This document shows positions 44,501 to 60,722 of a stretch of 64,000 nt of DNA, piece by piece. Origin of the DNA: Cladopsammia gracilis. Taxonomy: Eukaryota; Cnidaria; Anthozoa; Scleractinia; Dendrophylliidae. Position numbers and translations under genes: made by a program. Where the stretch lies: assembly GCA_022457155.1 (NCBI GenBank), contig JAJGOT010000136.1, positions 217,501 through 281,500 of the forward strand, given 5' to 3'. Under the pieces are notes generated by a model. It made no database searches and had not been told where the DNA came from. It saw only the letters and a list, made by a program, of their open reading frames with translations. Numbering within the stretch: position 1 is the first letter of the stretch; each line of letters begins with the position of its first letter.

Positions 44501-47500
44501 AAAAAGTCTTTATTTAAAAAAATAGTTACATTTTAGCTGACCGCGTTTAGCAAAAGCTATTCTAGGCGGGCAGATTATAGAAAAAGTACACGGAGAAAGT
44601 AATAATTTTTTACAGTTAGAAAGTTTAAAATTGAGAGAAAATAAATGAATGGTTAAATAAATAAAATAATTGTTGTTGAATTTAACTAGAAATCAATTCT
44701 CTTTATTATCAAAGGCGTTTCAATATAGTCATTTTCGTTTTGTAAAATATCAAGTAGCAGATTGTGTAGTGTTTTAAAACTTTTTTCCTATGGAGATCTC
44801 TAATATAGTGAGGTATCTCATTCCAAAGTTTAACGCCAAATTGAGAGAGTGAATATTTGAGTTTATCCATCCTGGAGCTTTTTATGTATAGTTTAAAAAA
44901 CGAGCAGTAGTGTATTATCAGGTTTAAAAACTCGAGGCGAAGCCGAGAGTTTTTACACCTGATAATACACGTGCTGCGAGTTTTTTGAACGGCTTCAAAA
45001 ACGTTCTTTCAAAAGCGTGTCCCTTCGGAATTAAAACATTTGCGCTTTTGTGCAAAGAGGAAATTAGCATACGAGAAAAACAAGTAGACTAGACAGATTA
45101 GCATACAACACATGTGCCACGTCTTCGACGAAGTGATCATTGCTTCCCGGCTCCTGTCGAAAGTTTTGGGATTTTATAGTTGTGAGGGAAAACATCTACT
45201 GAAAAATGCTATACTAAAGTTGTCAGGTACGGCAGATAAAACGGCTGACAATTTTTTTTCAGAGGTAGAGAACGAGTAGAAATAAACAGCTTGCATCTGC
45301 GAACCAGTCGCTTACCTGGCAATTTACACGAGTCATTCAAATAACGGCTCACTTGTTAAACTGTTGGTTGTTTATTTTGTTGAGAAGATTCCAAATAGAA
45401 TGGCGAAAGACCAGATTTCGTAAAACAGTACTGCACAAAAATATTAAAGTCACCATTTGTTGCACTAAGAATCCTGAACAATTACTACCCATATCAGTAA
45501 TCTTTATATAAAGATTACGTGTGATCTTAATATAAATATCACGGTCATTTTAAAATCATTCTCATTAAAAATTCAGCGATAATTGTATTGTTTGCCCATT
45601 CAGCCCCGAACTCCCCTGTGACTGAAATCAAAGCCGCCACCAGGGTTTTCATAATGATCGTAGATTACCAGGTATAAAGGGTCATACACGTGATCGATTT
45701 GCGTCGTGTGATTGGCTGATATGCTCATGAATTATTAATGAGTTTTTGAAGAATGTTTAAAACACGAACAGCAGTGTTTTATCAGAGCGCGAAGCGCGAG
45801 AATTTTTAGACTTGATAAAAGACGTGCTGTGAGTGTTTTGAACGGCTTCAAACACAAACCGCCAAAAGCGTGTCCCTACGGAGATTAAACAAATATGCTT
45901 TTTGTGCAAAGAGGATATTAGTATACGAGAAAAACAAGTAGACTGATTAGCATACTGCACGTGTGCTACTCTGGCATCGACGAGGTGACCATGGCTTCCC
46001 GGCTCCTGTCGAAAGTTTTGGGATTGTAAAGTTCTGAGAAAAAAATAATCCGTGGAAAATGCTATACCAAAATTGGCAGGTACGGTGGATAAAATGTCTG
46101 ACAATTTTTATTCAGTGGCAGCGAACGAGTTAAAATAAGCAGCTTGCATCTCTGAACCACTCGCTTACCTACCATTTTACAAGTGGGCGATGGTGTCATT
46201 CAAATAACGGCTCACTTGCTAAACTATTGGTTGCTAATTTTGTTGGAGAAGATTCCATATAGAATGGAAAAAAAGCTGCATATCGTAAAACAGCACTGAA
46301 CTAAAATATTAATGTCACCATTTGCTGTACTAAGAATCCTGAATAATTACTACCAACATTAGCATTCTTTAAATAAAGAATACTAATTCGGAAAAGAAAC
46401 CTATTGTCTTCTACCCTTATTAGTAATCTTTATATAAAGAATACTAATGAGAGTAATTTTTTATATTAAGAATACTAATGAGTTAAAATACAATCAGCCC
46501 CGCACTCCCCTGGGACTGAAATGACCACCACACTTTTCAGAATGACCATAGATTACCAGGTATAAAGGTCCATGCACGTGATGTATTTACGTCGTGTGAT
46601 AGGCTAATATGCTTATGAATTATTAATGAGTGTTTGAAATACAATTTACCAGAGGTCAATGACCGTGTATTTTATGAATGAACATTGGAAGTTATTTGAA
46701 ATAGGTTTAAGATATTTTGTGGTGAAATGTTGTTATTTATGTCATGCATTATACTAGCTATAGACTTGTAATACATGAACGATACAGGTACGATGTCAGG
46801 GAAGTACTGCAGCTTTCATTTGAATATAAGTCCACTTTAGGATTTCATCCACAGTCTCAAAAGTAAGAACCATCTTGTTCAGCATAATAAACAGTACCAC
46901 AGGAAAGTACTGCTCAGTAGCTTTCATTTGAATGGTCACACTTTAGGATTTCATCCACAGACTCAAAAGTAAGAACCATCTTGTACAGCATAATAAACAG
47001 TACCACAGGAAAGTACTGCTCAGTAGCTTTCATTTGAATGGTCACACTTTAGGATTTCATCCACAGTCTCAAAAGTAAGAACCATCTTGTTCAGCATAAT
47101 AAACAGTACCACAGGAAAGTACTGCTCAAAAGCTTTCATTTAAATGTCACACTTTAGGATTTCATCCACAGACTCAAAAGTCAGAGCTACCTTGTACAGC
47201 ATAATAAATAGCACCATAGGAAAGTACTGCTCAGTAGCTTTCATTTGAATGGTCACACTTCAGGATTTCATCCACAGACTCAAAAGTTAGAACCACATTG
47301 TACAGCATATTAATAAACAAGTACCACAGGGTGTGGGCGGCACGGTGGTCTAGTGGTTAGCGCGTCGGACTTTCAACCTGAAGGTCGGTGGTTCGAGCCT
47401 GGTCTCTGCCGTCGTGTTGTTTCCTTAGACGAGAAACTTTACTCCACACTGTCTCTCTCCACCCAGGTGTATAAATGGGTACTGGCGACCAAAATGCTGG

Positions 47501-50500
47501 GGGTAATCCTGCGATGGACTAGCATCCCATCCAGGGGGAGTAGCAATATTCCTAGTTGCTTCATGCTACGGAAACCGGGTTAAGCTCCGGCCGTGTGGGC
47601 CATCGTGGCCCGAGTGCGACTTTACCTTTACCTACCACAGGAAAGCTGCTCAATAGCATTCCTTTGAATGGTCACATTTTAGGATTTCATTCACACGCTT
47701 AAAAGTACATGTAAAATTTAATTAAAATTCTTTTACACAACTCGAAGGTTGTTACCTCTAGGATTGAAAGAGTTAATCCTTTCCCTGCTATAGGGTCAAT
47801 CTTAATGGCTATAGGGTCAATCTTAATGGTTGTAACCTTTATGTCGAACTTTTGAGATTGCATCATTTGCATGTTAATGAAATTTAAATAATAAAGTGGA
47901 ATTCTGTCTAATTCAATACAAACATAAATGTTATCATTTTATTTGCAGATGCACCTAAGGACACAAACATTACAACGAATGCACCGTACGACACCGTAAG
48001 TGATGGATCTTCCATAACCATCACGTGTAAGGCCCAGGGAAATCCTCCCCCAGAATACAAGTTTTACATTGGAGGTAAACGTATAAGAGATAGGCTTTCT
48101 GAGAGGTCAGGGGTGTTGAGTCTCGCGGCACTCAGCTTTGCTCAAAGTGGATCAATCTACAGCTGTCAACCTGAAAATGACAAGGGAAAAGGCCCAAGGA
48201 AGGAGGTCATGGTTTATGTCAGATGTAAGTAGACTTTGGCTTTATAAAGGGTACATTAAGACATGTACATGTGTGAGGTACGTGCATGCATGAGATATGT
48301 GCGCACATTTCATGCAATGTATGTACAGAATTCTTATTTCTTTACACTGCATTAATTTGAAATTACGATAATATACCTATCTGGTAAAGGTGTTACTGTT
48401 AGTAGTTTCTAAGGAAACTGTGGCGCTACTTTACAGTGTACATGAGAAAGTGAAATAATGAAGTTTAATATTCTGAGCCAAGCTGACGCAGAAGTAAAAG
48501 TAACAACCCACTGAAAGTAATGACCCCCGAAGGAAGTTCCCGAAGGCTGCTTATTCCAAAAGTAACAATTAGGGTAATATGTAATATGATATTAATGTCA
48601 TGTTTCTTTATAATTATTACTCCCTTCATGCCTGCAGATTCTCCAGAAATAACTCTGTCTCCTCAAGATAAGGCCGTCAATGAATATCAGCAAATCAGTG
48701 TACGATGTGAAGCTAAAGGTTTCCCACCACCGAAAATAAAATGGGTCAAACTTCTTGGTAACAAAACGATCCAAGAAGGAACTTCCTTGTTCATTCAAAG
48801 TGTTCAAAGATCAGACCAAGGACGTTACAGATGTACAGCAGATAATGGTTTTGGCGAGCCTGACACTGCAGATTTTGAAATAAATGTTTATTGTAAGTAA
48901 TATTGTTCTTAGAATACCAGAAGTCTGAATAAGTAGTTCCTTGTTCCCAGGTCTCAGCTGTGAGCACGGTAGACTTGCAGTGAAAGTAGCAACGGAAATT
49001 AATTTTGGAGCACTTGCCACCTGGGGGCAAGTTAATTTTAAAATGCATTTATTTTCCCAGATTAGGTTTTACACATCTAAAAAATAAATATCTCTTCAGC
49101 CCCACTATTGAAACAATAATCTCTCTACAGAACTAACACTGAACTAAGAATAACAACTGGTAGAAAGTGGGGTTTTTATAAATCAAACCAATGGTAACCA
49201 TGTGATAGACTAGCATCCCATCCAGGGGGTAGTAGTAATACTCCTAGTTACTTCATAGTATATAAACCAGGTCACCCTGTGATGGACTAGCATTCCATCC
49301 AGGGGGAGTAGGTATACTCCTAGTTACTTCATACTATATAAACCAGGTCACCCTGTGATGGACTAGCATCCCATCCAGGGCAGTAGTTATACTCCTAGTT
49401 ACTTCATAGTATAACAACCAGGTCACCCTGTGATGGACTAGCATCCCATCTAGGGGGGAGTAGTTTTTCTCCTAGTTACTTCATAATATGTGAAACAGGT
49501 CACCCTGTGATGAACTACATGTGGCATCACATCCAGGGGCAGTAGTTATACTCCTAGTCACTTCATAGTATATAAACCAAGTCAACCTGTGATGGACTAC
49601 ATGTCAACGAGGGGTGGGGGGGGGGGGAGGGGGAGGGGGGGGGTTGTTGTAATACTCCTAGTCACTTCATAGTATATAAACCAGGTCAGAAGTTCGGTGG
49701 CTGCGTGGCACTTGGATTTCATGAAAAACTTTTATAAATGGTATTTTAAAGTGCCAAAGTTTTTGAATAAGTTCCAAACGTTTCGGGCTTTGCCCTTCTT
49801 CAGTGGAAATATGTTCCTTGAGAAATACGCCACGACATCTAAAGTTTAAAATTATTGTCTCTTGCATGCGCGCGCGCGACCTTCAGAAGAAACGAAAGTC
49901 AGAATTTAGGCCGCGCGGTTGACAGGTACCAAGTTGGAAAATAAGGCGCATCTCCTGCCGTTTCCTTTGCTTGTTTCCGTCGCAGAGCTTGACGCCGCAA
50001 ACCAGCACGTCATCCGCAGTGTCCATTGGAACTGAAATGCTCTGAAATGCTCTGAAATGTTCATCACAGGTCACCCTGTGTTGAACTAGCATCCCATTCA
50101 GGGGGGAGTAGTAATACTCCTAGTCACTTCATAGTATATAAACCAGGTCACCCTGTGATGAACTAGCATCCCATCTAGGGGGAGTAGTAATACTCCTAGT
50201 CATTTCATAGTATATAAACCAGGTCACCCTGTGACGAACTAGCATCCCATGCAGGGGAAGAAGTAATACTCCTAGTCATTTATAAACCAGGTCACCCGGT
50301 GATGGACTAGCATCCCATCCAGGGGGGAGTAGTAATACTCCTAGTCACTTCATAGTATATAAACCAGGTCACCCTATGATGAACTAGCATCCCATCCAGA
50401 GGGAGTAGTAATACTCCCAGTTCCTTTATGTTGCAGAAACCTAAAAAGCCATCAACCCTTTACCTTTCCCCAAGGGTAACCGGGAAAGTATTGGAATAAC

Positions 50501-53500
50501 TGACAAGAGAGACAGAGTTGTGAAATGATTTTAAAAGTTGTATTTTAGTAGTTATAGTAGCTCAACCTGACCCCTGACCAATCAGGAGCGAGTACATCTC
50601 ATTAAAGATGGCGCAGCCAATCAGAGACGCGCAACGAAAACATGTACACGGCAATGACGTCATGGGTGGAGGATGAGTGACCGGAAGTGGTGGTATCAAT
50701 CGACCGGAAGTGAGTCGACCGGAAGTGATTGGGTGGGTTCCAGATCCCGCTCGGTCAGAGAGACAAAAAAAACCAGAAATAACACAAAAAATGCCTTTTA
50801 ATAGTCACACAACGAATCAAAATGCAAGCGGGAAAATGGGTTCCATCCCCGAATGGGAGAACGCCCCTAACATGCGAAGAAAAAAAGCAACAACAACAAA
50901 GGCTAGTTTACAAACGGGGACATGGGTTCCGTCCCCGAATGGGAGAACGCTCCTTTTAATCGGTGAGATCCTCGTCGGGTCGAAGCCAACTGAAGCTGTA
51001 AGGGAGAGTCTTGAAACTGAATTCATCGGCGAGGACGCGTTTGTCGTAGACCACCCCCCGGAGTTTATCCCTGCGAACGGTGGTCAACGTCTTGGTTCGC
51101 TTGTCTCTCTTGATGAAATGCGGGTTGGGTACGTTGATGTGCGCGGTTTGGGGAGAAGCGAACGCAGTTCGAGGAACAGGGTGTCTCTTATGGATTGAAA
51201 ATGAAGGTGTTCTTGCCTGCGCATGTTCAAGGTGAACCCGCGAATTTTCTCTTCCGTCTTCCCCAAACGTGTCTTGTAGGCATAGTTTTTGGGGCCGCAG
51301 GATAGGAATTCAACGATGACGTCACGATTCCCTTTCCCGTCGTCCAATTCGTCCGTCATCTCGCCGAGAAAATTACCTAGGGGGATCTCGGGTTCGCCGG
51401 GTTGCCATTTGTAGACCACAGAATCCATGTAAAATTACAGGGCATTGTCTCCCCAAAAAAGAAACAGTTGTTGTTATTGTTGTTGTTAAAAAAATAAAAA
51501 AAAAAGTGGTTGAAAAAAAGAACGTTTCCGGTGCATTTTTTTATTTCACAGGAAAAAAAGAGACTCATTTCACCGCGAGTGATCTGATGGTCTAGCGGTA
51601 AAGACGCTGCCTTGTGGCCGCAGAGACCCAGGTTCGAATCCTGATCATTGCATCTCTTTTTTTCTTTTTCTTAATAAAAGAACCATCCCTTTTGGGGAGG
51701 GAATCATTGTTTTTTTTCGGGACGCCTCTTCAACATGCCGAAAGGGAATCGAACCAAACGACGACGACGACGTACCCGAGGGTTCACGGGTAAATCGGGA
51801 TCCAATCCCTCTTTTTTGACGGTGTTTGGAAATCGCGGGCAGATGGGCGAGGCCTTGCGACGCAAACGAGAGCAGACGGGCGGGATCTTCACCGTGCTAG
51901 CGTCGGCGGCCAAACTGGGATACCAACTGGGAAAAATGAAATCCTACAAAAGGATGGGCGTGACGGGAGCCACGGGTCATTATCGCGGTCGACGCAAACC
52001 GTGGGAAGGGTTGGGAGTTGGAATGGGAAAAAATTCTACATCACCCCGAGGATGTCTTATGGAATCGATGGGATTATCGTCATTATCATCGATTGCGTGA
52101 ATTGGCCGAACGAGGCGCCTGGGATGCCTTGGTGACCGCGCTTCGGTCTTGCGGGGAAACGCATGTCAGGTAAAGCGTGGAAACCCTCATAAAACAGCGC
52201 ACCCTTCGATGGTACGATCACTACCTGGCACGATGATTCACATGCCGAATAGCGCCATGATCGGCGGCCCCTCGGGGTGCGGAAAAACCCAATTGCTGGA
52301 CATGTTGACGGAGAAACGCGTGTTTCAACGGACCCCGGCTCGGATCCTGTACTGTTGCGGGGTATGGCAACCCCGCTTTGCTCGCATGAAGAAGAAAGGC
52401 ATTCGATTTCATCAAGGGATCCCGACCCCCTCTCACTTGGGACAATGGCTCGAGGGTCGAGGGGGCGATATTATGGTGTTGGACGATCTCATGGAAGAAG
52501 GGGGCAACGACAAGCGTGTGTTGGATTTATTCACCAAAGATTCCCATAATCGAAACGTCACGGTGTTTTATTTGACGCAAGATTTGTTTCCGCCCGTAAA
52601 ATTTGCCAAGACCATCAACCGAAATGCGCATTATGTCATCGCCTTCAAGAATCCACCCGATCGCACGGGCATGCGAAATTTGGCGTTGCAAGCGTTCCCG
52701 GACAAATGGCAGGGGGTGATGGACGTGTTCAACCTCTGCACGCAGAACCCCTTTGGCTATTTAATGTTGGATCTCCACCCGGCGTCCAACGATCGGTTTC
52801 GGTTTTGGACGAAGCTGCGCGAACGAGAAACGCCTTTTTTCAGGTTTTATTATAATTATTATTATTATTATTAATAATGCACATCTTTATTGAAGGTGTT
52901 AAGATCTAGTTACAAATAGTACAATGGTATATTACAATGGTATATATGCTAACAATAATAAAAAAATGCGATTGCATTATTTACTACACACACACACACA
53001 CAGCAAGAGACATATACAAAAGGTAGACATACACCAGTAAGGACAGTACTTTTTGTTACATATATTCTTAAAATAGGACATGTTAAATATGACCTAAGTT
53101 AATACTTTAAAATTAAATAGATTGAGCTAAGAAAGGCCTTCAATGAGAAATTTGAAGGCAATTCGTTGCTTAAATTCATCCAAATTTATTCGTTTATTGT
53201 TTAGTTTTTGGGATTATAGATAATATTTTGCAAATAACAAACAGTAATTTCACTTTTTTAGTGTCTCATCGGAACGCGCTAATTGATCATTGTCAAATTC
53301 AAATTTACCAAATAAAAATTCTTCTGTGGAGAGTGAATAGGAGGTGGCATGTTCGCTGTTAAACCATATTAAGACCTGACTGAAACATGACTTGGAAGGC
53401 AGGCAGTCAATGAAAGTATGACCTATCGAGTCACTTTCATTACAGTATAGGCAGTCTTTGTTACTTTCAATACCAAAAAGATGCAATTCCTTCTTTGTAG

Positions 53501-56500
53501 CGATAATTCTACGTAGAAATTTGTAGTAAAATTCTCTAAGTTTAGTCTCCTTACAAAGTACCTTCAATTTACTAAAGTAGCAAGGCCAATTCAAATTCAA
53601 CAATTGAATTTCGTGTTCCCATTTCATTGGGCCAGTAGCTTTAGTGACAGACTTGTTAGAAATAAGCCAGTAGAAATCTTTGCTTTTCATCTTAAGTTTA
53701 TTGAGGCTCTAGGTGACAGAGGAAATATAAAGTTGTTGTTTTCGAATTTGTGTTTGTCAACCGCTCTGGCTAGCTTTTTCTCGCAGATGTTTGCGAATTG
53801 CTGCCAAAACTTGGAAATATCGAAGAGAGTTGCACTTGAGGTTATATTTTTGCAGGAATTCCTGGTAAGAGAGAAATTTCCCCTCGTCATTTAAAACATC
53901 TCGGATAGAAAGAATTCCTTTTTGATGCCATTCATCGTAATAAAATGACTTCTCATTTATTAAAATTTCTGTATTATTAAATAGCACCAAATCTTGCTTA
54001 TAGGCTCCCCCGCGTCACCGCCCACGACCGTCTCGGCCACCAGGACGGTGGCAGGCGCCCCCGGCGGACCGGGAGGGTCCCCTTCCTCCTCCTCGTCGTC
54101 GCCCTCTCCCCCTCGTTCCCTCGTGGACGAGGTAGGCGACCCAGAGGACGCCGGGGACCTGGACCCACCAATCGACGCAATCAAGAGGACATGCGTCAAC
54201 AAATGGATCTAATGGCGGAAGATGTCAGACAGCAAGCTCGGGACCTTCGCATACGCAATATCACGCATACCAACACCGTGATCACGGTGAACGAAGACAA
54301 CGGCGAGGCCCCCACCGTACGACGGACGTCCTCCCGCATCAGCAATCCATAAAAAGGCGAAACACACACACACACACACACGCCAGTGGAGACGATCGCG
54401 ATGGTACGAAGAAACGGAGTTCGCAGACGCACGACCTCTCGCAACCGACGACGTCGTCGTGGAAGGTCGCAACATGGGACGGTTTGGAAGAATTACTTCC
54501 CCCCATCATGAGTGTGGTGAAATCCCTCATGGCGGGACAAACCGTGGGGGCCTTTGCGAAAAAAGCCGTGAAAGAATTGGCCAAAGAAACCGTCAAGAGT
54601 GGAGCTCGAGGGGTGGCCCGAAAAATGACGAGTACTGTGCGAGGCATCAAACGGAGAGCCACGCGGGCTGCGCAACGCGTCAAACGACGCCTTCCGGGTC
54701 TATAAAAACGGCCGAGGGTCACCGAGGATGTCATCATTTCCCCGTCGACACACGACCTTCACCATGCCGAAAAAATACGACGCCGACGTAGTGCCCTGCG
54801 TCGATGCGACGATCCCGCGGCCTTCAACAGGGAGGCGTGCTTCCTTTACTGGCGTTAGCCGTGCCTGCCTTGATCGCCGCGGGAAAAGCGGCCGCCTTGG
54901 GTGCGGCGGGAGGCGCGGCGGGGTACGGTGCCAAAAAAGCCTTGGAAGCTGCGACCCGAAAACGGAGGTGAATAGAACAAAACAAGAGAAGAGAGAAAAA
55001 CCCGTCGAGTATAAAGTGTGCACGATCCCTAGGGACGACGGTCGATCTGAGTGCGTCGTCATACGTCGCATCCATCGTCAATTGCCTTTCTTGAAAAGTG
55101 TCTTGAAGGAAGCCGAGCATCATCGACGACAAGAACGTTTGCAATTAGCCAATGCGGATCAAATCAATGCTATCAGCGAACTGGCGATGAACACGTTACG
55201 GGGAACGGTACCCTCTCCCGCGCCAATTATCGAGTGCTACTCCCCCACCATCAGGCCTTGCGTGACATGGCGAAAAAAAGAATTCGATAAAAAGACGTCG
55301 AGAGACCATGCAATCTCAAACGGGGGCGTGCCTCTGGCGCGGGTTGAATTGCATCTGCGAAAGAGCCTTCAAGGCGCGATGAACCACGTTTCGCATCTTA
55401 TGAGAAGAACGGAACGACGGGAACAACAACGACAGGCCGCCTTACAGCGCGTGGTAGAGACCTTGCAAAGTCGAAATCGAGAGGTGGAGAGGCTGGAAAA
55501 GGACCTCGAGACGCTTCGCGAGCGATTGAGGCAAATGGAAGACCACTTGGAGGTGTTGTGTCAACATTTGCTGAATCTACGCGATCACCAACTCTGCCGC
55601 TACTGCCAAGCCTACGCCAACGTGTTGGGAGACGGGAGCAGCAAGGAAAGATCATGAGTGCGTTCCAGGCCCAAGCCGTCACCGACCCTCAACGGTTTCT
55701 TCAATTACAAGAACAGTACAAGCAACGATTGATGGAAGACAGTCGATTGAACAAACAGCGACTTTGGCGGCCGAAGAAGACGTGTTGCTCAACTCCGACC
55801 TCGACCCGGGGCTCAAAGTCGCGTTGGCCAAACCCTTGGCGCGTCAAGTGCGCGTGTGGACCAAACGCGTCCGACAACCGGGCATGACAGCCCCGGGAAC
55901 GCAGGTGGGGGCACCGGCGGCGGAGGAGGAAGATCTGGCCGAGGCGCCCATCTCCACCTTCATCAAACAAATGATAAAAGGACGCACCACTACAACCCCC
56001 GCACCAGGTCCAAAACCAGCCAAAGCGACAGGAACCCCGAAAAAGGTCAGCGTCAAGAAACTCACGACGCCCTCGGGCATTCCGAAACCCATCCGTCCAA
56101 GACAACTTCCCTTGGACACGCCCGCGTCGGCACCCGGGCCCTCGACATCTTCATCCCTCAGCAGCACTCTGAAACGAGCCAAACAGACGATTGGGAGTGT
56201 GGCGAAAAAAAAACAAAAAGCGATAAGAGAAAAAAGCCCAGGCGGCCGTCAAACGAAAGGTGAAATCGGAGCTAGAGAGACTCAAGACGGATTGGTTGGA
56301 TTGGAAGTAATGGGGCGCGGTCAAACACCCAAACGGTGAAGGAAGGCTCCCCGTCGACGAAGAGCCATTCGCGGAGGGAGTTTTGACATTCAAAAATGGC
56401 TGGCCAAAACGGGGATCGAATTTCATTGGCCGGGGTATCAATACATGGGACCCGAGACGCATCTCGCCAAACGCCTGAAACGAGGGGATCCCGGAAAAAA

Positions 56501-59500
56501 TCGGTTGGATCGATTGGCCAAGCAACACGACATCGATTAAGGTCGTGCCCAGACGATACAAGACAAGTGGAAAGCGGATGAAAAAATGATCCGAGGGATT
56601 GCCAACCTGCCGGGAAAACACACCCTGACGGAGAAGATCGTCAAGAAAATCATGCATGCCAAGAAACGTTTAAAATTGTAAAATGACACTTTTTATTGGT
56701 ACAAGGTTGTGTGCAAATAAAATCAAGCACTTGTAAAACAAACGTGTGTTTTTTTCGCGTCAGTTCACTCTTTTGAATCCTCCTCTTGTTCCTCCTCCTG
56801 CCAATCATGTCGGGGGTGACAAAAGTATTCTCGTAGTCCGGCAGTACACAACGTAATATGTTTCCAACCAATTTACACTGCGCCGAGAAACAATTGGGGG
56901 TCCAGGTAAAACCGTGTCCAGTGAGATAGGCGGCATCTTTCTCCTCTTCGCACCCCCTGCACAAACATTGGTCCAACAAGAGATCGCAGCGCACTTGCCA
57001 TTTCAAGCCGCGACGACGTGCCTCTTTCATGTCTTTCAACCACTGCACTTTGTCCCTTTGCAACGTCTCGACTCGAGCGCGGAGGGAAGTGTTGTCGGTC
57101 TTCAAGGCCTCGACGCGACTCGGAATCTCGCTGCAGGGTACCCCACTGAGTTTACACGTCACATCAGCCATGGCCGCTCGAAGGGAAAAATTTTCTTTTT
57201 TCACGTCGTTCAATTCCTGGGTCAATAACGCGTTCGTCATGGACAACGGATCCATCGCATAGCCCAACATCGTGCCTGTCCTTCCTTCTCTCTCGAGGCG
57301 ATTAAATAGAACGAGGTGGGTGGCGAGAGAACCTGGGGCGAGTGAAGAAAAAAAGACCCATACCCCCCATTGGTACCGTGTTCATTCCCAGCGTTCTTTG
57401 TCCTCCTTCCCGAGGGTATAATAAGAGCAGTGGTCCCACCGTTTCACTCTTCACTCAGTTGTTACGAGCGAACTTATCAAACATGGCGTCCAACAAAGTC
57501 GTCACCACCTCGGTGGTGGAAGTCATGCGCGCCAAACGGAAACGTGCGATGAAGGATAAGGAGAAGGAGACCCCGGCCGCCAAACGCGTGAAAGTGGAAC
57601 CGGTGGAAGAGAAGAAGAAGAAGGAGGATCCATCCCAGACTGCCTTGCTTCCACATGGAGAGTCGTATTGGGATTATCTATCCGTCATCCTCCAAGAACG
57701 CATCCAGGATTTGGCGGCCAGGCAACTGCACCGCGAACGCATGGCACGGGTATGTCTCGAGATTGTATTTCATCGGATTTGCCAACATCATAAGTGGATC
57801 AAATATTCAGTTTAATGTGTCGGTTGCAATCATTGCACTCAAAAACGGCGTTACGGGTCCATCGATCAATTATTAGCCAATGTGCGTTCCATCAAAAACC
57901 CCCATCCCGCCCATTGGACCAATGGCTATTGCAGTGAATGCTACTGGGATATCATGCCACTCTAATTGATGGTTTTCGTGACCTTTGTTTTTTTCTCCTT
58001 GACTACAAGGTGATGGTCGAAATCCGCACCTTGCTTCGCTGCCCTGTCACGCAATGGGTGCGACCCACCTCGAGTCGACGTTCTTTTATTGGGTGGTACC
58101 TCTCTTGCCTCTACTGTCGACGACGTGTTTTTTTCGTTTCACCCCGCAAAATATAGATCATGGGACACTTGCGGCAATTGTACTTCTGCCTACGATCGTT
58201 ACGGTTGAACGCCGAATATCATACGAAAAATCCCGACCTGTGCCAACATTGTTATCGTAAACTCGTCAAGGGCAAAATTAATCGTTTTGTCAAAAGAAGG
58301 AAACGCAAAGATCACTAATGGAACCTTTTTTTTTTTCATTTTATTTCACACTGAACAGTTGATTGGAGAAATACAAGACTTGCCCGTTTGCGCCGTTTCC
58401 GATTGGGGCGATCCTACTCCGTCACCTTTTTGTCAACATTGTTTGCGACGATGGACAGACGGGGACATTGACGACCGTTTTCTTCTCCGTTTTTTTTAGT
58501 TAATGCAAGAACTCGGGCATTAATCCATCGTATGTCCGGCCACCGAATGGGTCAGCAGTCCCTCGTTGGAGTATTGCCAACATTGTCGACGCATAGAACT
58601 GTTTGGGCGACTCGATTTCCTCGTCGCCCATTCCATCGATTGGGATCACGAGGACTTTATGGACAATCACGATGCCCTTTACAACGACGACCATCTCGTT
58701 GCTTTTGCGGACAAACGTTTAAATTTACGTTTTTATCAACACGTGAAATTATTTTTTTAAAACTTGTGAATAAATGTGTCGTTGTTTTTTTTTTTAGATC
58801 CTGGATCAATTGATGTCTCTACGCGTTTGCCCCTTCTGCCTATGGTCTACCCGAGCCTTCTTTCTATCCATTCCATGCTGCCATTGCGTGCGGGGTTTGG
58901 CCATAGGAACGATTGGATGAAATACAAAAAACAAAAAAACACTCAACGTGAATAACCTTTTTTTTCAGGTCATGGCGCAATTGGAATCCCTGATCGGTTG
59001 CGGCTTCCGACAGTGGACCACCTGCAGCGCCGACCCATGGATTCTATGCAACCATTGTATTCGGTATTTTGTTCTCGGGTCCATTGACGACTGGCTCGAA
59101 AAGACCAAACTGCCCGCCCACCATCAGAGACTTGCCCTTACGGGTTCAGTTGACTTCCACCCGACGAGGAAAACACCAGTCAGTGGCGTTCTCTCTTTAG
59201 GGGATGGAACTCATGTCCCCGCTTGTATTTTGTTTCGTTTTGTGACTATTGAAAGGCATTTTTTGTGTTATTTCTGTTTTTATTTCGTCTCTCTGGCCGA
59301 GCGGGATCTGGACCCACCCAACTAAAATCACTTCCGGTGACGTCACTTCCGGTTTACGGTACTCCCGGTCGATTGATACCGCCACTTCCGGTCACTCACC
59401 CCCCACCCATTATGTCATTGCACGTTTGCAGATTTTCGTTGCTTGTCTCTGATTGGCTGTGATGTCATTGTACTTGTACAGATTTTCGTTGCTCGTCTCT

Positions 59501-60722
59501 GATTGGCTGCGCCATTTTTATGAGATGAAAATGATATGCTAATGAGATGTACTCGCTCCTGATTGGTCAGGGGTCAGTTTGAGCTACTATAACTATTTAT
59601 TTTTTATTTATCCCACAAGATGCTCCAAAAATCAACGGGACTGCATCAAGCCAAAATGTACCTGCATGGGCAGGTGCTACAACAAACTTGTCATGTGTTG
59701 CCGATGGTAATCCCGCACCACGTTACATCTGGACTAACAGCTCTGGTACAGTCGCTACTTCAGAAGCGAGTAGATTACTGCAGGTGACACCTCAGGGTTT
59801 AGATGGCTTTGGCCCATACACGTGTACAGTATTCAATAAAATGGGCAATGACCAGCTGGCTATAAACCTGGTGAGAGTTGGTAAGTTTGAAAGATATTTT
59901 AAGAAAGATTAAATGGACTTAAATTAAATGCTTAAAATTTGAAAATATTAATACTCAGGTACCTTATAAATATTTTCACCTTTATTCAGGGCTATAACTT
60001 ATTTTGTAATTAGACGGGGAAGTAAAAAACATGTATCTTGGAAATAATAACTGCCATTACTATTTCTTTATATGGGCTAATAACAACATTGTTGAGTATT
60101 TCTTTTAATGGTGCTGTTTCCATATTTTAAAATTAAATTAAAGCATTTGGAACATTTTGTGTAGTGTGAGCTGGCCATGGGCCACTAACCCTTAACTCCC
60201 AAGAGTGTCAAAGATCAAAATTTAGGAAAAATTCCAAATTTCGTTTTGTTAGAATACTGCAAAACAGATGTTTACAATGCAAAAGTACTGCGGAAGAGGT
60301 TTCATTTGAATGGTCAATTAAACCATAGGTTTTTGTTGACAAACTCAAAAGTTCAAACTACATTACATGTCTTCATAATTAACTCTGGGAGTCAGAGGGT
60401 TTTAAAGGAGTTTTATTGCTTTTGTTTCCAGATAAGCCTGTGGTGCAGCTTAGACTTCAAAGCAGTTCTGACGATTCCCTCTCCTTCACATGGTCACTGC
60501 TTTCTCAGGAGAGCAGCAACGTGTTTTTACAATATTATACCTTGGAGTACCGTACAGCTGACACAAAAAGCTGGAAAAAATCCATTAAATTTCTCTCTGA
60601 CACAACAACTTACAAGTTAAGTGGTTTAAAGCCATACACTGACTATGTTGTTGAGTTACTTGCAACAAATAAACACCTCACCAGCAATCCGTCCCGTGTT
60701 CGAGCAAGGACTACTGAAGCAG
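29512..60722 (+). CDS. Immunoglobulin-superfamily cell-surface protein, 5' seven exons (signal peptide, 5 Ig, 1 FN3)
   Basis: Exons: 29512-29560, 29718-30077, 44130-44387, 47949-48224, 48638-48892, 59620-59880, 60432-60722. The first encodes a signal peptide (MLFRLKLLLLLSPALL). Each later exon encodes one complete extracellular domain in phase 1-1: an Ig V-like domain, four I-set-like domains with the C...W...DxGxYxC pattern, and one fibronectin type III domain. The donor of the last exon is a good gtaaga, so the gene continues beyond the window, presumably to more FN3 repeats and a membrane segment. The order Ig-then-FN3 resembles NCAM/contactin/DSCAM-type adhesion proteins; I cannot name the orthologue. 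Intron 2 (14 kb) and intron 5 (10.7 kb) carry the two virus-derived elements. Confidence 0.9.
29718..30077 (+). CDS. Ig gene exon 2, V-like Ig domain lacking the first cysteine
   Basis: After the acceptor gctag comes a 119-residue domain with NATLQWNYEV where the B-strand cysteine is expected, VLWL for the core Trp, and DDGFYMC for strand F. The canonical disulfide therefore cannot form. Donor gtgagt. Confidence 0.9.
30235..33706. mobile_element. 3.47-kb foldback transposon with inverted repeats of about 1 kb
   Basis: Left arm 30235-31257 and right arm about 32742-33706 are inverted copies (for example ggacagagagggagtct and its inverse, gcggaaacattttccgg, tcgataggccgcgtgt). GTAAATA is duplicated directly outside (30228-30234 and 33707-33713). 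The 1.5-kb centre has no convincing gene. A 7-8-bp duplication with kilobase arms fits a Foldback/Galileo-like or hAT/P-type family. Confidence 0.8.
33714..34362. other. Intron sequence, no gene seen
   Basis: Contains a hairpin with gttttcacgag and its inverse (about 33720-33782). Nothing else supported. Confidence 0.5.
34363..35414. mobile_element. 1.05-kb MITE with minisatellite-like TIRs
   Basis: Ends tgttgaagccacaaatgtaa and its inverse. The subterminal 85 bp are alternating ccacaaatgtaata and gccctcaaatgtaata words. No target duplication is clear. The right end abuts the viral reading frame at 35415. Confidence 0.7.
35415..36337 (+). pseudogene. Conserved Polinton-like-virus protein, function unknown, frameshifted
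   Basis: An acidic, Lys-rich N-terminal part (35415-35525) ends in a TGA. The frame then shifts to a 200-residue stretch with YGGLMIDVSKLMKDL, a GGKLVYEAD strand and LLTKRYNPK before another shift near 36030. Conserved-looking coding continues to about 36337. The combination IDxxKL...LLTKRYNPK is one I associate with an uncharacterised gene common in invertebrate Polinton-like elements; the role is unknown. The 5' end is cut by the MITE at 34363-35414. Confidence 0.6.
36359..37711 (-). pseudogene. Major capsid protein (double jelly-roll, Polinton-like virus), frameshifted
   Basis: Minus-strand frames cover about 450 residues. The N-terminus MNGNFRSPNLVKRY is at 37711. The central part carries YSYFAAFKNNLHPNI and DSKVILTKLRLWCPK. 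The C-terminal third carries FTFKTFSIGANNRKFSRAQL, YYPQLEMTSDEESRLYRTLM and FGILYFDLR. This pattern matches the double jelly-roll capsid family of Polintons and related viruses (F54H12.2-like in invertebrate databases). The reading frame is broken by an 8-bp duplication near 37608, a TGTA microsatellite near 37340-37360 and one or more changes at 36790-36950. It cannot encode an intact capsid protein. Confidence 0.72.
37739..38155 (-). CDS. Small virion-type protein, intact frame (pVI-like?)
   Basis: 138 residues on the minus strand, starting MERRIRDYDTGEDYYTDTET. A glycine patch GGGIFDAF is followed by an amphipathic Ala/Lys helix (AAEKLIEKGSEKIGEKTGEL) and a charged tail. Position between penton and capsid genes and the Gly-then-amphipathic layout recall minor virion proteins of adenovirus-like and Polinton viruses. 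This is the only frame in the fossil without a break. Expression is unknown. Confidence 0.55.
   Translation of the reverse strand: MERRIRDYDTGEDYYTDTETKGGGIFDAFSNFGAKLTGQTPKKFASKAAEKLIEKGSEKIGEKTGELIGEKIYDKFKTKPKQSKKKELKKEPGPTHEIKDFVIHPVEPKEDKGEKIVKLLQKNNDKYSYVKDVYKDRL
38786..39816. mobile_element. 1.03-kb pogo/Tigger-type MITE
   Basis: Ends cagtatgttgcccagtttcc and the inverse ending gggcaacacactg, flanked by TA (38784-38785 and 39817-39818). A subterminal copy of gcccagtttccggccac lies at 38992. CAGT...ACTG with TA duplication fits pogo-like Tc1/mariner elements. No transposase frame. Confidence 0.8.
39867..41029 (-). repeat. 1.16-kb dispersed repeat with tRNA-like head, copy 1 (minus)
   Basis: Inverted copy of 61541-62661. 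It contains, on the minus strand at about 40205-40275, a tRNA-like stretch (gacagcgcagtgattgag, A-box-like; cgagttcgaatctcc, B-box) followed by a long T run, which fits Pol III transcription and termination. Both ends carry hairpins containing ctcgtg. Inserted in the penton pseudogene. Confidence 0.7.
41160..41535 (-). pseudogene. Adenain/Ulp1-like virion maturation protease, frameshifted
   Basis: Minus strand: the part from 41535 reads HIHETGCCIINLDDKIGQGT followed by HWVA, the strand and catalytic His region of adenovirus-type cysteine proteases. In another frame YFDSF follows near 41400. In a third, CGYYCLYFL near 41290 supplies the catalytic Cys region. Deletions and frameshifts separate these, so no functional enzyme is encoded. 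Such proteases cleave virion precursors. Lies immediately upstream of the penton start. Confidence 0.65.
41551..44129. other. Intron 2 remainder, repeats only
   Basis: A 110-bp block (tcaaagaggagtacccaggg ... gtgtcatagtataataaaca) occurs at about 41836-41945 and 42266-42375, linked to satellite remnants. Short inverted words around gaaaca/tgtttc fill 43490-43880, and a G run lies at 44027-44045. I see no exon. Confidence 0.55.
44130..44387 (+). CDS. Ig gene exon 3, I-set Ig domain
   Basis: Reads DPPRILPL..., TELACHTDGKPKPKVTWKKG and DAGLYTCIAENAGG. Both cysteines and the Trp are present. Acceptor ttggtag, donor gtaagt. Confidence 0.93.
44462..44890 (-). mobile_element. LINE 3' end (same family as 18671-20515)
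   Basis: The minus strand encodes SRMDKLKYSLSQFGVKLWNE and later LLDILQNENDYIETPLI with one shift, matching the C-terminal tail of the earlier LINE (ILQKTDDYIDVPQI). It ends in a (TTG)n-like tail at 44468-44485. Confidence 0.75.
44890..46640. repeat. Direct tandem pair of an 860-bp repeat
   Basis: 44890-45745 and 45755-46640 share gttttttgaacggcttcaaa, agcgtgtcccttcggaa-type and cggctcctgtcgaaagtttt blocks in the same order. Each begins with a hairpin around the centre tcgaggcgaagccgaga or gcgcgaagcgcg. No coding evidence. Confidence 0.75.
46800..47330. repeat. 106-bp satellite array in Ig gene intron 3
   Basis: Five units of the same satellite as in the ABCD3 introns, same orientation. It is interrupted by the SINE at 47331-47632 and continues to 47710. 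Confidence 0.88.
47331..47632 (+). mobile_element. tRNA-derived SINE with 9-bp target duplication
   Basis: The head has an A box in tggtctagtggttagcgcg and a B box in ggttcgagcc. The body includes gatggactagcatcccatcc, and the tail is (ttacct)n-like. TACCACAGG is duplicated at 47322-47330 and 47633-47641, cutting a satellite unit. Confidence 0.9.
47949..48224 (+). CDS. Ig gene exon 4, Ig domain
   Basis: Reads YAPKDTNITTNAPYDTVSDG, ITITCKAQGNPPPEYKFYIG and SGSIYSCQPENDKG. The usual core Trp is replaced by Phe/Tyr. Acceptor atttgcag, donor gtaagt. Confidence 0.92.
48638..48892 (+). CDS. Ig gene exon 5, I-set Ig domain
   Basis: Reads DSPEITLSPQDKAVN, ISVRCEAKGFPPPKIKWVKL and SDQGRYRCTADNGFG. 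Acceptor cctgcag, donor gtaagt. Confidence 0.94.
49180..50440. repeat. Minisatellite of about 75 bp derived from the SINE body
   Basis: Units of ccaggtcaccctgtgatgga, ctagcatcccatccaggggg and agtagtaatactcctagtt repeat at 49190-49690 and 50066-50430. Each matches the SINE's region 47510-47580 (gatggactagcatcccatcc ... attcctagttgcttcat). A G run lies at 49615-49643, and 49690-50065 is an unrelated insert. Confidence 0.85.
50550..51013 (+). repeat. Left terminal inverted repeat
   Basis: Pairs with 59130-59594. It carries three ACCGGAAGTG ETS-type sites (50680-50727), a TGACGTCA CRE/ATF site (50655-50662) and CCAAT-type boxes (ccaatcag). The inner part overlaps the PolB C-terminal codons, and an internal 60-bp duplication (ccccgaatgggagaacgc twice) is present. 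Confidence 0.85.
50956..51428 (-). pseudogene. Protein-primed DNA polymerase B, C-terminal stub
   Basis: Minus strand. It begins at DSVVYKWQPGEPEIPLGNFL, the tail of polymerase motif C (TDS), followed by GPKNYAYKT and RGFTLN, the conserved thumb segment of Polinton PolB. After a frameshift near 51130 comes NPHFIKRDKRTKTLTT and the terminal VVYDKRVLADEFSF...LPYSF, ending at TAA 50956-50958. Everything upstream of motif C is deleted, as are the exonuclease and most polymerase motifs. It cannot be active. Confidence 0.8.
51575..51651 (+). tRNA. tRNA-like Pol III unit (His-GTG-like anticodon loop)
   Basis: A-box tggtctagcggtaaagac and B-box ggttcgaatcc at normal spacing. The anticodon arm is ctgcc-ttgtggc-cgcag (GTG if a tRNA, one C-C mismatch). 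An extended terminal stem forms between gcgagtgatc and gatcattgc, and a T7 terminator sits at 51657-51663. The acceptor stem is unlike a standard tRNA, so it may be a tRNA-derived small RNA and not a functional tRNA. Confidence 0.55.
51735..52171 (+). pseudogene. Basic core-like protein, frameshifted
   Basis: Begins MPKGNRTKRRRRRTRGFTGK, a protamine-like N-terminus, and runs about 95 residues (GGIFTVLASAAKLGYQLGKM). From about 52015 the better coding frame is a different one, with WELEWEKILHHPEDVLWNRW and RLRELAERGAWDALV, ending at TAA 52169-52171. The Arg-rich start suggests DNA condensation as in adenovirus-type core proteins; that is an inference from composition. The two parts could also be two genes. 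Confidence 0.5.
52209..52840 (+). pseudogene. Packaging ATPase (FtsK/HerA-A32 type) interrupted by a LINE
   Basis: Walker A GGPSGCGKTQLL, Walker B GGDIMVLDDLM, and the sensor-like NVTVFYLTQDLFPP with NRNAHYVIAFKNP match the Polinton/adintovirus genome-packaging ATPase. The start at MVRSLPGTMIHMPNS is chosen because family members begin just before the P-loop strand; an in-frame ATG lies 60 nt upstream. The reading ends at FWTKLRERETPF where the LINE begins, so the C-terminus is lost. This is the best preserved motif set in the element. Confidence 0.82.
52841..53997 (-). mobile_element. L1/Tx1-type LINE fragment inserted in the viral element
   Basis: The minus strand encodes the C-terminal region of ORF2: WHQKGILSIRDVLNDEGKFL and EFLQKYNLKCNSL (53757-53990), then CLYCNESDSIGHTFIDC, the C-terminal zinc knuckle (53250-53690). 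It ends in a (TAA)n tail at 52850-52875. The 5' end is truncated. A different LINE class from 18671 and 44462. Confidence 0.82.
53998..54352 (+). pseudogene. Viral frame resuming after the LINE
   Basis: A proline/arginine-rich stretch leads into MRQQMDLMAEDVRQQARDLR and then TNTVITVNEDNGEAPTVRRT before TAA at 54350-54352. Another frame in the first 200 bp is Gly/Ser/Pro/Asp-rich and also open, so which is genuine is unclear. It could contain the ATPase tail plus a separate short gene. An (ac)n run follows at 54361-54381. Confidence 0.35.
54401..54705 (+). pseudogene. Arg-rich, amphipathic core-like protein, one frameshift
   Basis: Starts MVRRNGVRRRTTSRNRRRRR. After a one-base shift near 54470 it continues as LLPPIMSVVKSLMAGQTVGA with a Lys/Arg amphipathic helix, ending RRATRAAQRVKRRLPGL. 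This recalls pVII/pVI-like DNA-binding or membrane-active virion proteins; composition only. Confidence 0.45.
54701..54707 (+). promoter_or_regulatory. TATA box of the pX-like gene
   Basis: TATAAAA about 60 nt before the candidate start at 54764; the same spacing recurs at 55010 and 57417. Confidence 0.5.
54764..54971 (+). pseudogene. Adenovirus pX/mu-like peptide
   Basis: A basic start at 54764 (MPKK, then frameshift) joins a frame from 54804 in which a Gly-Gly leads into LPLLALAVPALIAAGKAAAL, then an Ala/Gly-rich segment and a KRR tail, stop at 54969-54971. A basic head followed by a GG-hydrophobic-Ala segment is the signature of the pX/mu-type protein found in adenoviruses and adintoviruses. 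It is thought to condense the genome. The frameshift lies in the A-run at 54769-54774. Confidence 0.6.
55010..55015 (+). promoter_or_regulatory. TATA box of the 55061 gene
   Basis: TATAAA 51 nt upstream of the degenerate start codon ATA at 55061. Confidence 0.45.
55061..55290 (+). pseudogene. Conserved small Polinton protein, start lost and frameshifted
   Basis: Reads RRIHRQLPFLKSVLKEAEHH and INAISELAMNTLRGT. After a shift near 55205 it reads NYRVLLPHHQALRDMAKKRI, stop at 55288-55290. The pattern of a leading helix, 'LxxxALNxLxGxVPL', then 'LxxHKxxLRxLA' is one I associate with a very common uncharacterised Polinton gene. ATA stands where ATG is expected from the TATA spacing. Function unknown. 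Confidence 0.5.
55318..55657 (+). pseudogene. Coiled-coil protein with C-terminal Cys pair
   Basis: From MNHVSHLMRRTERREQQRQA (ATG 55379) a heptad-rich helix runs through LEKDLETLRERLRQMEDHLE, ending CRYCQAYANVLG. An upstream ATG at 55318 opens a Cys-containing N-terminus in another frame, probably joined before a frameshift. Its stop overlaps the next start as ATGA. Similar layout (coiled coil then Cys region) to the minus-strand gene at 56764-57270. Confidence 0.45.
55654..56310 (+). pseudogene. Protein in the pVI/minor-virion position, two frameshifts
   Basis: Starts MSAFQAQAVTDPQRFLQLQE, with the ATG overlapping the previous stop. After about 32 codons coding shifts frame to LAAEEDVLLNSDLDPGLKVA and LARQVRVWTKRVRQ, then a Pro/Thr/Lys-rich linker with ISTFIKQMIKGR. 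It shifts again in the A-run at 56200-56220 to reach KRKVKSELERLKTDWLDWK and TAA 56308-56310. The N-terminal helical part resembles a conserved Polinton protein of unknown role. Confidence 0.45.
56310..56681 (+). pseudogene. Phospholipase-A2-like virion protein, two nonsense codons
   Basis: The start ATG overlaps the previous stop (TAATG). In one frame: a basic head, then FHWPGYQYMGPETHLAKRL, RGDPGKNRLDRLAKQHDID, and a Lys-rich helix to TAA 56679-56681. This is the viral PLA2-like fold shared by Polinton proteins and parvovirus VP1, used in family members to breach membranes. TGA replaces a sense codon at 56337-56339, and TAA stands at 56538-56540 directly after HDID, where the family has the Tyr of its catalytic motif. 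The Ca-loop is GPE, not the usual GPG. Not functional as read. Confidence 0.78.
56764..57270 (-). CDS. Coiled-coil/cysteine-rich protein of the viral element
   Basis: Minus strand from ATG 57268-57270 (MLGYAMDPLSMTNALLTQEL). Residues 10-90 form a coiled coil. A Cys cluster follows (CDLLLDQCLCRGC, then CFSAQC). The continuous frame runs to 56650. The better-looking end is in another frame after about 56865, with Cys, Cys, His and an acidic QEEEQEEDSKE tail stopping at about 56764, which implies one frameshift. A TATA-like TATTTAAT on this strand at 57301-57308 lies 33 nt upstream. Family unknown; the Cys/His cluster suggests zinc binding. Confidence 0.55.
57417..57424 (+). promoter_or_regulatory. 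TATA box of the 57483 gene in a divergent promoter
   Basis: TATAATAA about 65 nt before the ATG. The interval 57271-57482 serves both this gene and the minus-strand gene ending at 57270. Confidence 0.45.
57483..57963 (+). pseudogene. Probable nuclear protein with Myc-like NLS, internal TAA
   Basis: Starts MASNKVVTTSVVEVMRAKRK. A lysine-rich region contains PAAKRVKVEP, almost the c-Myc nuclear localisation signal. A helical region (DYLSVILQERIQDLAARQLH) leads to HRICQHHKWIKYSV and TAA at 57813-57815. The same frame continues in clearly coding style with CVGCNHC, a helix and GYCSECYWDIM to TAA 57961-57963, so the first stop looks like a nonsense change or a readthrough site. Cys/His content suggests a zinc module at the C-terminus. 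Family unknown. Confidence 0.5.
58013..58156 (+). CDS. Small Cys/His protein, array unit 1
   Basis: 47 residues: MVEIRTLLRCPVTQW near the start and YLSCLYCRRRVFF near the end. It aligns with the next five units as M-x-[EQH]-[LI]-x-x-L-x-x-C, a central Trp, then C-x-x-C, here with Tyr in place of the usual His. The ATG follows cttgactacaag|gtg, a T-rich tract, AG and three bases. No family recognised. Confidence 0.6.
   Translation: MVEIRTLLRCPVTQWVRPTSSRRSFIGWYLSCLYCRRRVFFVSPRKI
58160..58318 (+). CDS. Small Cys/His protein, array unit 2
   Basis: 52 residues with LYFCLRSLRL, PDLCQHCYRKLVKGKI and a basic tail KRRKRKDH. The four likely ligands are C-x(18)-C-x-H-C. The AG of the previous unit's TAG stop is followed by atc and ATG, so the same AG-NNN-ATG layout applies. 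Basic tail unique to this unit. Confidence 0.65.
   Translation: MGHLRQLYFCLRSLRLNAEYHTKNPDLCQHCYRKLVKGKINRFVKRRKRKDH
58362..58499 (+). pseudogene. Small Cys/His protein, array unit 3 (start codon ATT)
   Basis: Reads IGEIQDLPVCAVSDW and SPFCQHCLRRWTDGDIDDRF, stop TAG 58497-58499. A long T tract then tttcacactgaacag|ttg precedes ATT, exactly where the paralogues have ATG; the start is therefore probably lost. The stop lies in a T8 tract that doubles as the next unit's acceptor-like signal. Confidence 0.6.
58503..58760 (+). pseudogene. Small Cys/His protein, array unit 4 (early TAA)
   Basis: ATG 58503 lies three bases after ttttttttag. Codon 7 is TAA (58521-58523), near the conserved Leu position. 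The same frame continues with CPATEWVSSPSLEYCQHCRR and a longer acidic tail (SIDWDHEDFMDNHDALYNDD) to TAA 58758-58760. Longest unit apart from the last. Confidence 0.6.
58801..58920 (+). CDS. Small Cys/His protein, array unit 5 (start CTG, or ATG at 58813)
   Basis: Three bases after tttttttttag stands CTG where others have ATG; an in-frame ATG follows four codons later. Reads LDQLMSLRVCPFCLW and IPCCHCVRGLAIGTIG, stop TGA 58918-58920. Confidence 0.5.
   Translation: MDQLMSLRVCPFCLWSTRAFFLSIPCCHCVRGLAIGTIG
58972..59325 (+). CDS. Small Cys/His protein, array unit 6, running into the TIR
   Basis: The ATG follows ccttttttttcag|gtc. Reads MAQLESLIGCGFRQW, then PWILCNHCIRYFVLGSIDDW. The conserved part ends by about 59130. 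The remaining 65 codons lie in the terminal inverted repeat and are probably an accident of reading into it. Confidence 0.6.
   Translation: MAQLESLIGCGFRQWTTCSADPWILCNHCIRYFVLGSIDDWLEKTKLPAHHQRLALTGSVDFHPTRKTPVSGVLSLGDGTHVPACILFRFVTIERHFLCYFCFYFVSLAERDLDPPN
59130..59594 (-). repeat. Right terminal inverted repeat
   Basis: Inverse of the left repeat. It has three cacttccggt sites (59329-59392), TGACGTCA (59338-59345) and repeated gattggctg boxes, and ends ctactataact. The inner part overlaps the end of the last small Cys/His frame. Confidence 0.85.
59620..59880 (+). CDS. Ig gene exon 6, Ig domain, just downstream of the viral element
   Basis: Reads DAPKINGTASSQNVPAWAGA, NLSCVADGNPAPRYIWTNSS and FGPYTCTVFNKMG. 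Its acceptor atttatcccacaag begins 25 nt after the end of the Polinton-type element. Donor gtaagt. Confidence 0.93.
60432..60722 (+). CDS. Ig gene exon 7, fibronectin type III domain
   Basis: Reads DKPVVQLRLQSSSDDSLSFT with the core Trp in FTWSL, YYTLEYRTADTKSW, and LSGLKPYTDYVVELLATNKH (the FN3 L..Y...V signature). Acceptor gtttccag, donor gtaaga. Confidence 0.93.

Follow-up and report, generated by a model that had tools for sequence, protein, structure and literature searches.

A predicted gene with tandem, homologous alternative terminal exons in a virus-like element of the coral Cladopsammia gracilis

The array of predicted exons at the locus

A stretch of 64,000 nucleotides from the coral Cladopsammia gracilis (GenBank assembly GCA_022457155.1, contig JAJGOT010000136.1, positions 217,501 to 281,500 of the forward strand; hereafter the window, in whose own coordinates all positions are given) contains a decayed virus-like insertion near whose right end, past a putative divergent promoter region, lies a tandem array of short, related reading frames. 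A preliminary description had presented this array, at 58013..59325, as six Cys/His micro-proteins, each with its own start codon three bases past a T-rich AG and each delivered by a spliced leader. The six AGs (last base 58009, 58156, 58358, 58499, 58797 and 58968) and the codons listed three bases beyond them are present in the sequence, but the count of six has to be revised, since a seventh unit begins upstream, at 57750, and is continuous with an open reading frame (ORF) that starts at 57483. The features of the array are as follows.

57411..57424, plus strand: TATA-like candidate promoter, CGAGGGTATAATAA, 66 bases upstream of the ATG of exon 1
57483..57749, plus strand: shared exon 1, an ORF of 89 codons with its ATG at 57483 and a basic N-terminus with runs resembling nuclear localization signals (NLS)
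57750..57751, plus strand: predicted splice donor CGG/GTATGT, phase 0, with GTATGT kept in most genomic copies and, as AAG/GTATGT, in the same position in the divergent relatives L040 and L051
57750..57965, plus strand: unit 0, into which exon 1 continues if unspliced and which aligns in register with units 1 to 6
58010..58156, plus strand: unit 1, behind AG 58008-58009, predicted to serve as an alternative terminal exon
58157..58318, plus strand: unit 2, after AG 58155-58156
58359..58499, plus strand: unit 3, after AG 58357-58358; the AG of unit 4 falls within its TAG stop
58500..58760, plus strand: unit 4, after AG 58498-58499
58798..58920, plus strand: unit 5, after AG 58796-58797
58969..59325, plus strand: unit 6, after AG 58967-58968; its frame continues into the terminal repeat of the element

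Behind its basic N-terminus, exon 1 encodes a conserved core, WDYL..(I/L)..LA....HRERM. Two database proteins, P0001 and P0002, match exon 1 at 64 and 67% identity over the query, and in both of them (162 residues and intact in P0001, 158 residues in P0002) exon 1 and unit 0 form one frame, P0002 diverging from P0001 at the very end. Many copies also keep a VKVE in exon 1, which we take to be a motif resembling a SUMO site; it is not found in L040.

Units 1 to 6 each start in phase 0 directly after an AG, and the T-rich tract that had been described before every one of these AGs precedes five of them. The unit 0 peptide, which begins V-C-L-E-I and continues to C-x4-W, resumes past a stop specific to this copy with C-N-H-C and G-S-I. 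That the units are paralogues, as had been proposed, is borne out by their residues counted from the junction: aligned without gaps, the first 16 residues of units 0, 1, 2, 3, 5 and 6 reach a BLOSUM62 sum-of-pairs score of 268 (unit 4 was omitted because of an additional residue and a stop in this stretch), compared with a mean of -240 (standard deviation 35) for shuffled residues, and this score was attained in 0 of 20,000 shuffles and 0 of 20,000 random register shifts. When the six unit AGs are compared with the rest of the 30 AGs of that stretch, they prove to be T-richer (a mean of 10.7 versus 5.5 of the 20 preceding bases; 9 of 20,000 random sets do as well) and to follow a longer AG-free stretch (74.5 versus 37.7 bases; 250 of 20,000 random sets).

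Conservation among copies in the same genome

A search of the window's own genome (878 Mb) with exon 1 and the start of unit 0 found 88 matching places, some of which are two pieces of one copy. Fifty of these places (30 plus 20) were taken for comparison, and the tallies given here cover 41 copies, the window itself (L001) and members of other families (L033-L040) being set aside; the open-frame counts, which refer to frames open through the Cys motif, leave out copies with fewer than 90 bases remaining. The donor GT is kept in 38/41 copies and the full GTATGT in 37/41. For the units, the lines below give in turn the copies that keep the AG, those with ATG at the start codon claimed in the preliminary description, those with an open frame, the most frequent second residue in open copies, the open copies with Trp five residues past the first Cys, and the ratio of nonsynonymous to synonymous differences (pN/pS) in the frame set by the junction.

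Exon 1: pN/pS 0.41
Unit 0: open 34/41; C; Trp 33/34; pN/pS 0.60
Unit 1: AG 37/41; ATG 36/41; open 28/41; M; Trp 26/28; pN/pS 0.44
Unit 2: AG 38/41; ATG 2/41; open 31/41; T; Trp 30/31; pN/pS 0.65
Unit 3: AG 38/41; ATG 0/41; open 34/41; I; Trp 34/34; pN/pS 0.48
Unit 4: AG 39/41; ATG 38/41; open 30/41; M; Trp 30/30; pN/pS 0.48
Unit 5: AG 35/41; ATG 1/41; open 28/41; L; Trp 26/28; pN/pS 0.52
Unit 6: AG 37/41; ATG 32/41; open 27/40; M; Trp 27/27; pN/pS 0.29

With one exception (a G in unit 0), every open row has V, I or L as its first residue after the junction. Of the three frames, the one set by the junction gives the lowest pN/pS in each of the eight segments, the other two reaching 0.86 and 1.07 in exon 1, 0.65 and 1.90 in unit 1, 0.82 and 1.00 in unit 2, and 1.09 and 1.11 in unit 6; pairs below 60% identity or 70% of the codons were excluded, and decay after insertion raises these ratios. 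The units are each closed by a separate stop codon, both in the window and in those copies whose frames are open. Among seven longer copies, five carry AATAAA or ATTAAA 249-289 bases past the start of unit 6. In L031 and L032 the terminal repeat directly follows unit 0, so that the spliced units appear to have been lost there.

These tallies bear on what the units encode. Were each unit delivered by a non-coding or short spliced leader as a micro-protein of its own, starting three bases past the AG, one could point to the ATG found there in most copies of units 1, 4 and 6; the same codon is nonetheless rare in units 2, 3 and 5, Met occupies the position in none of the 16 best units of the divergent arrays described below, the residue that precedes the claimed start (V, I or L) is conserved as well, and exon 1 is an in-phase coding sequence under constraint. 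We consider this account very improbable. The start-codon reading was accordingly rejected: the supposed start is merely the second residue of the unit, and conservation falls instead on the AG, the phase and the hydrophobic residue right after the AG. Since exon 1 is coding, phase 0 is kept and its continuation is itself a homologous unit, the predicted products are long proteins with an 89-residue N-terminus in common. Of the spliced leader with alternative acceptors that had been proposed, the sequence supports a single upstream donor with several acceptors, each opening onto a small Cys/His module, and gives no support to a plain leader.

A different account would treat the downstream units as silent cassettes from which gene conversion overwrites unit 0, much as in antigenic variation, and an arrangement of homologous tandem units behind one expressed copy is what it calls for. 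The flanks of the units are, however, not shared, unit 0 being preceded by coding DNA and the others by a T-rich AG, and these AGs are conserved although silent cassettes need none; moreover, the stop of unit 3 is TAG in 32/34 open copies. This is, in our judgment, the least probable of the explanations weighed. The unit 3 stop coincides with the unit 4 AG in 30 of those 34 copies, the frame reading through the AG in the other 4, so that one of the two stop-AG overlaps that had been noted is well kept; the other, between the stop of unit 1 and the AG of unit 2, recurs in 0/28 open copies.

Two divergent arrays

A distant match in the same genome, L040 (44% identity), has an array of its own, and L051 is a second copy of it, 91% identical over the query. 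Every position in any frame of both loci was scored against the six window peptides. In L040 the top 8 of 1951 positions, scoring 15.8-26.5, all lie directly after an AG, a placement shared by only 82 positions, and one of them is unit 0 at the donor AAG/GTATGT in phase 0; among positions not preceded by AG the highest score is 8.5, and on the reverse strand nothing exceeds 3.5. The result is repeated in L051, where 139 of 2650 positions follow an AG and the top 8 again include unit 0 at the AAG/GTATGT donor. An additional, weaker unit follows in each array, and the 16 best units without Met at the claimed start include both copies of unit 0. The unit AGs of L040 and L051 are preceded by 11.4 and 10.9 T in 20 bases, versus 5.7 and 5.6 for other AGs (0 and 0 of 20,000 random sets), and by AG-free stretches of 45.8 and 44.9 bases versus 19.6 and 17.6 (121 and 89 of 20,000). 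When the two families are compared unit by unit, units 0 and 3 have clear counterparts, and the remainder do not correspond one to one.

The ends of the gene also find counterparts. CGAGGGTATAAAA lies 47 bases before the exon 1 ATG of L040, CGAGGGTATAA precedes exon 1 in the window as well as in L040, and AATAAA or ATTAAA follows 165-185 bases past the start of the last unit in L051 and L040. As a side observation, the divergent neighbour of the L040 array (L040 4741-5220, plus strand) is RING-like (zf-RING_2, E 0.0097, under the cut-off), and the window has an unrelated-looking ORF with a coiled coil and Cys residues in that place.

Phase 0 at the start of every unit would also suit consecutive internal exons of a multi-module protein, or the combination of two modules by way of a second donor in unit 0, for which a phase-0 donor-like site exists at 57882 and in the copy L015. 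Against this, the units end in their own stops, in the window as in open copies, and in L040 the AAG/GTATGT at exon 1 agrees with the donor consensus at 8 of 9 places, a score that no other site from exon 1 to the last unit reaches. Modules joined in series seem to us scarcely more credible than silent cassettes. Taken together, the copies and the divergent relative establish, at the level of sequence, the paralogy of the units, the common register and phase of the predicted donor and AGs, and the conservation of donor, AGs, frame, Cys and Trp.

The predicted proteins

The expectation that the Cys positions would be conserved holds for C11 and for C-x-x-C, which, together with W16, are invariant in 15/15 aligned units of both families (an alignment that omits the weak last unit, unit 8, of L040); the His inside C-x-H-C is not invariant. 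A conserved set of candidate Cys/His ligands is thus present, the fourth being uncertain, and we infer that the C...C-x-[HYNQ]-C of the units may bind zinc. That the modules belong to no known family, as had been stated, agrees with our searches: in Pfam the unit-containing ORFs had no family match near the cut-off, and a unit profile run against the protein collection returned three candidates and no real match. BC-box and E4orf6-like readings were also considered, but the L-x-x-C spacing of the units does not seem to fit a BC-box.

The core of exon 1 occurs in a further type of relative. Proteins P0003-P0009 and loci L033-L039 have the same core (WDYLP..HRERM..VC.SI) with a C2H2-like Cys/His C-terminal end in a single frame. 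No unit array was recognised in the 3.2 kb scanned downstream of L033-L039; P0003-P0009 are known as proteins only, and they lie on contigs of up to 2.7 Mb. L033-L039 adjoin ORFs with a YqaJ viral recombinase domain (E 1.1e-16 for L035 and 1.6e-11 for L038, two of the ORFs tested), and therefore look likely to represent a separate kind of viral element.

The pattern WDxLP...I..L...VC.S of the core is reminiscent of F-boxes. No F-box model of Pfam matches any of 21 relatives, and PRANC, an F-box-like poxvirus domain, matches three of the 21 under the cut-off (best E 0.018). A profile comparison of the core with 20 host F-boxes (hhalign) gave a probability of 21% and a score of 18.1, above all 300 of 300 column-permuted controls (maximum 16.8); with the relatives split by type, the array-type score was reached by 4/150 permutations and the finger-type score by 1/150. 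A search of PDB sequences with the core returned nothing relevant, and its fold model, one long helix, found no F-box match in a fold search. The core may be F-box-like, a possibility that we hold to be less likely than not. The collection of viral contigs, searched with exon 1 and with two wider alignments, gave no match.

The virus-like element and its surroundings

The array belongs to an insertion whose recognisable features are the following.

50547..59597: decayed virus-like insertion of about 9 kb, bounded by inverted terminal repeats of about 0.5 kb
50547..51011, plus strand: left terminal inverted repeat, in pieces, with the 6-bp flank TATTTT at 50541-50546
52149..52874, plus strand: likely packaging ATPase; Pfam matches all under the cut-off (among them ABC_tran, E 0.036, and Adeno_IVa2, E 0.044)
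53250-53708, minus strand: retrotransposon fragment inside the element (zf-RVT, E 2.7e-7), in a GC-poor stretch of 1 kb near 53 kb
56340..56540, plus strand: phospholipase A2-like ORF of the parvovirus VP1 type (PF08398, E 8.2e-5, 23.2 bits; cut-off 23.9)
56650..57270, minus strand: divergently transcribed neighbour of the array, an ORF with a coiled coil and a Cys-rich part; Pfam gives weak coiled-coil matches only
59128..59597, minus strand: right terminal inverted repeat, with the 6-bp flank TATTTT at 59598-59603

The terminal repeats match in pieces of 28-107 bases that are 82-98% complementary (50549-51011 versus 59128-59595), a trait of the Polinton/Maverick type, and judged by its ends the element appears Polinton-like. 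Polintons are further marked by a 6-bp target duplication and a 5'-AG end; here TATTTT flanks the element on both sides, the element itself starting with AG on the left and ending with AA on the right; the flank is T-rich, and for that reason a chance origin of the pair is not negligible. The ATPase ORF holds a P-loop, GGPSGCGKT, which we take for a packaging ATPase signature; as a query against the viral contigs collection it found no match. The element further contains basic, core-like ORFs, and the coiled-coil/Cys-rich neighbour is retained beside the array in most copies examined. Protein-primed PolB, rve integrase and capsid/hexon were not identified by Pfam among the ORFs of the decayed window copy (50.5-59.6 kb). 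In an ORF by the left repeat (51084-51434, minus strand), GPKNYAYKT...KIRGFTLN is suggestive of a viral PolB C-terminus; the ORF has no match in Pfam or PDB. By eye, the stretch 51582-51652 (plus strand) is tRNA-like, with what we believe to be A-box and B-box motifs; ARAGORN reports no tRNA. Further viral genes may have been lost around the retrotransposon fragment, which adjoins ATT and CA microsatellites.

Outside the element, exons encoding Ig domains adjoin the insertion, in keeping with an animal host. At 59598-59627, immediately past the element, lies the apparent 3' splice site (TTTATCCCACAAG/ATGCTCC) of a host exon of Ig type, and the element is inserted inside the T-rich tract of this site; its position might influence host splicing. 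Direct repeats of about 75 bases form two clusters just to its left (49227-50398), and 106-base repeats lie at 46822-47313. A second virus-like element, AT-rich, occupies 35453-38714, where two minus-strand ORFs weakly match a double jelly-roll capsid domain (PF21738, E 0.0014 and 0.027, under the cut-off).

Interpretation

We conclude that the array very probably belongs to one gene, in which phase-0 splicing would join exon 1 to one of six homologous terminal exons, or the unspliced transcript would read on into a seventh. One promoter would give rise to a transcript with exon 1, which alternative 3' splicing would join to one of the tandem terminal exons, retention of the intron leading instead to unit 0; each unit would act as a terminal exon with its own stop, and a poly(A) site downstream of the last unit would be common to all. 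The products would then have identical first 89 residues, with NLS-like runs and the core, and a different Cys/His end in each case. Such proteins may be nuclear early adaptors, their common part, with its NLS-like runs and weakly F-box-like core, docking to one host machine and each end recruiting a different target.

Several observations weigh against this conclusion. The splice sites are predictions from the DNA sequence. In-frame stops interrupt unit 0 (TAA 57813) and unit 4 (TAA 58521) in the window copy, where the tract before the unit 2 AG is also weak (5 T in 20 bases, 17th in T content among 39 AGs). The donor-like site at 57882 (AAT/GTGCGT), in phase 0 within unit 0, scores the same as the exon 1 donor (7/9 each), and L015, with AAA/GTGCGT in its place, has a site there that scores as high as its first donor; such a donor could join unit 0 to a further unit, although no site of this type is among those scoring at least 7 in L040 and L051. 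AATAAA is absent after unit 6 in the window copy, and two of the seven longer copies have none within the fetched stretch. The AlphaFold models are poor, the first one having a mean pLDDT (predicted local distance difference test) of 48. Finally, the counts do not represent independent events, since all 41 are related copies within a single genome, and only two array families were seen, both of them in it.

If the gene works as proposed, a small DNA virus could diversify its host-targeting proteins into many related forms while needing few genes. A more far-reaching and rather unlikely elaboration would make the array a combinatorial early gene of an animal DNA virus, in which one promoter and one F-box-type N-terminus serve seven to nine zinc-binding heads that steer the host ubiquitin machinery to different targets, the battery growing and diversifying by unit duplication as in insect serpin-1; were this true, less than 2 kb would furnish a small virus with a whole tool kit. 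There is also a lesson for annotation, in that gene callers blind to splicing would list the units as spurious micro-proteins or miss them.

Comparison with known systems

The preliminary description had likened the array to adenovirus early regions. In these, as with the major late leader, one donor serves several acceptors and the leader is largely non-coding. The general trick of one donor and many acceptors carries over, and the likeness goes no further, the adenovirus leader being largely non-coding and the genes downstream of it unrelated in sequence. In the T-antigen early region of polyomaviruses, an N-terminal exon is held in common, the unspliced product has a Cys-rich end and the spliced products have other ends. 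The predicted gene resembles it in all these respects, but the alternative ends of the T antigens are mutually unrelated, whereas here they are tandem paralogues.

With adintoviruses and Polintons the element shares inverted terminal repeats, a candidate 6-bp flanking repeat, a likely packaging ATPase and a phospholipase A2-like ORF, and it differs in that PolB, integrase and hexon were not identified in the window copy. Adintoviruses are defined by an OTU-PolB, a hexon and a chromodomain integrase, and the portions consulted of the work that gives this definition describe no matching early array in adintoviruses or Polintons (PMC11071296). Nor did we find, in the parts consulted of the open-licence literature on adintoviruses, Polintons and alternative splicing, a report of tandem homologous terminal exons in a virus.

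The closest parallel is a cellular one. In insect serpin-1 genes, a constant body is combined with any of a large set of homologous, alternative C-terminal exons; for PpSerpin-1, 21 C-terminal forms are described in a paper whose reference list also cites Manduca serpin-1 (PMC10513286). The features of that kind of gene, namely a common exon and homologous, in-phase alternatives that each have their own acceptor and stop, recur here as predicted from the sequence. Serpin-1 is, however, a cellular gene encoding another protein, whereas the present array lies in a virus-like element and its first alternative is predicted to arise from non-splicing. Alternative terminal exons as such are thus already known; what the predicted gene adds is their arrangement in tandem and within a virus-like element, with good sequence support for the array and for its pattern of predicted splice sites.
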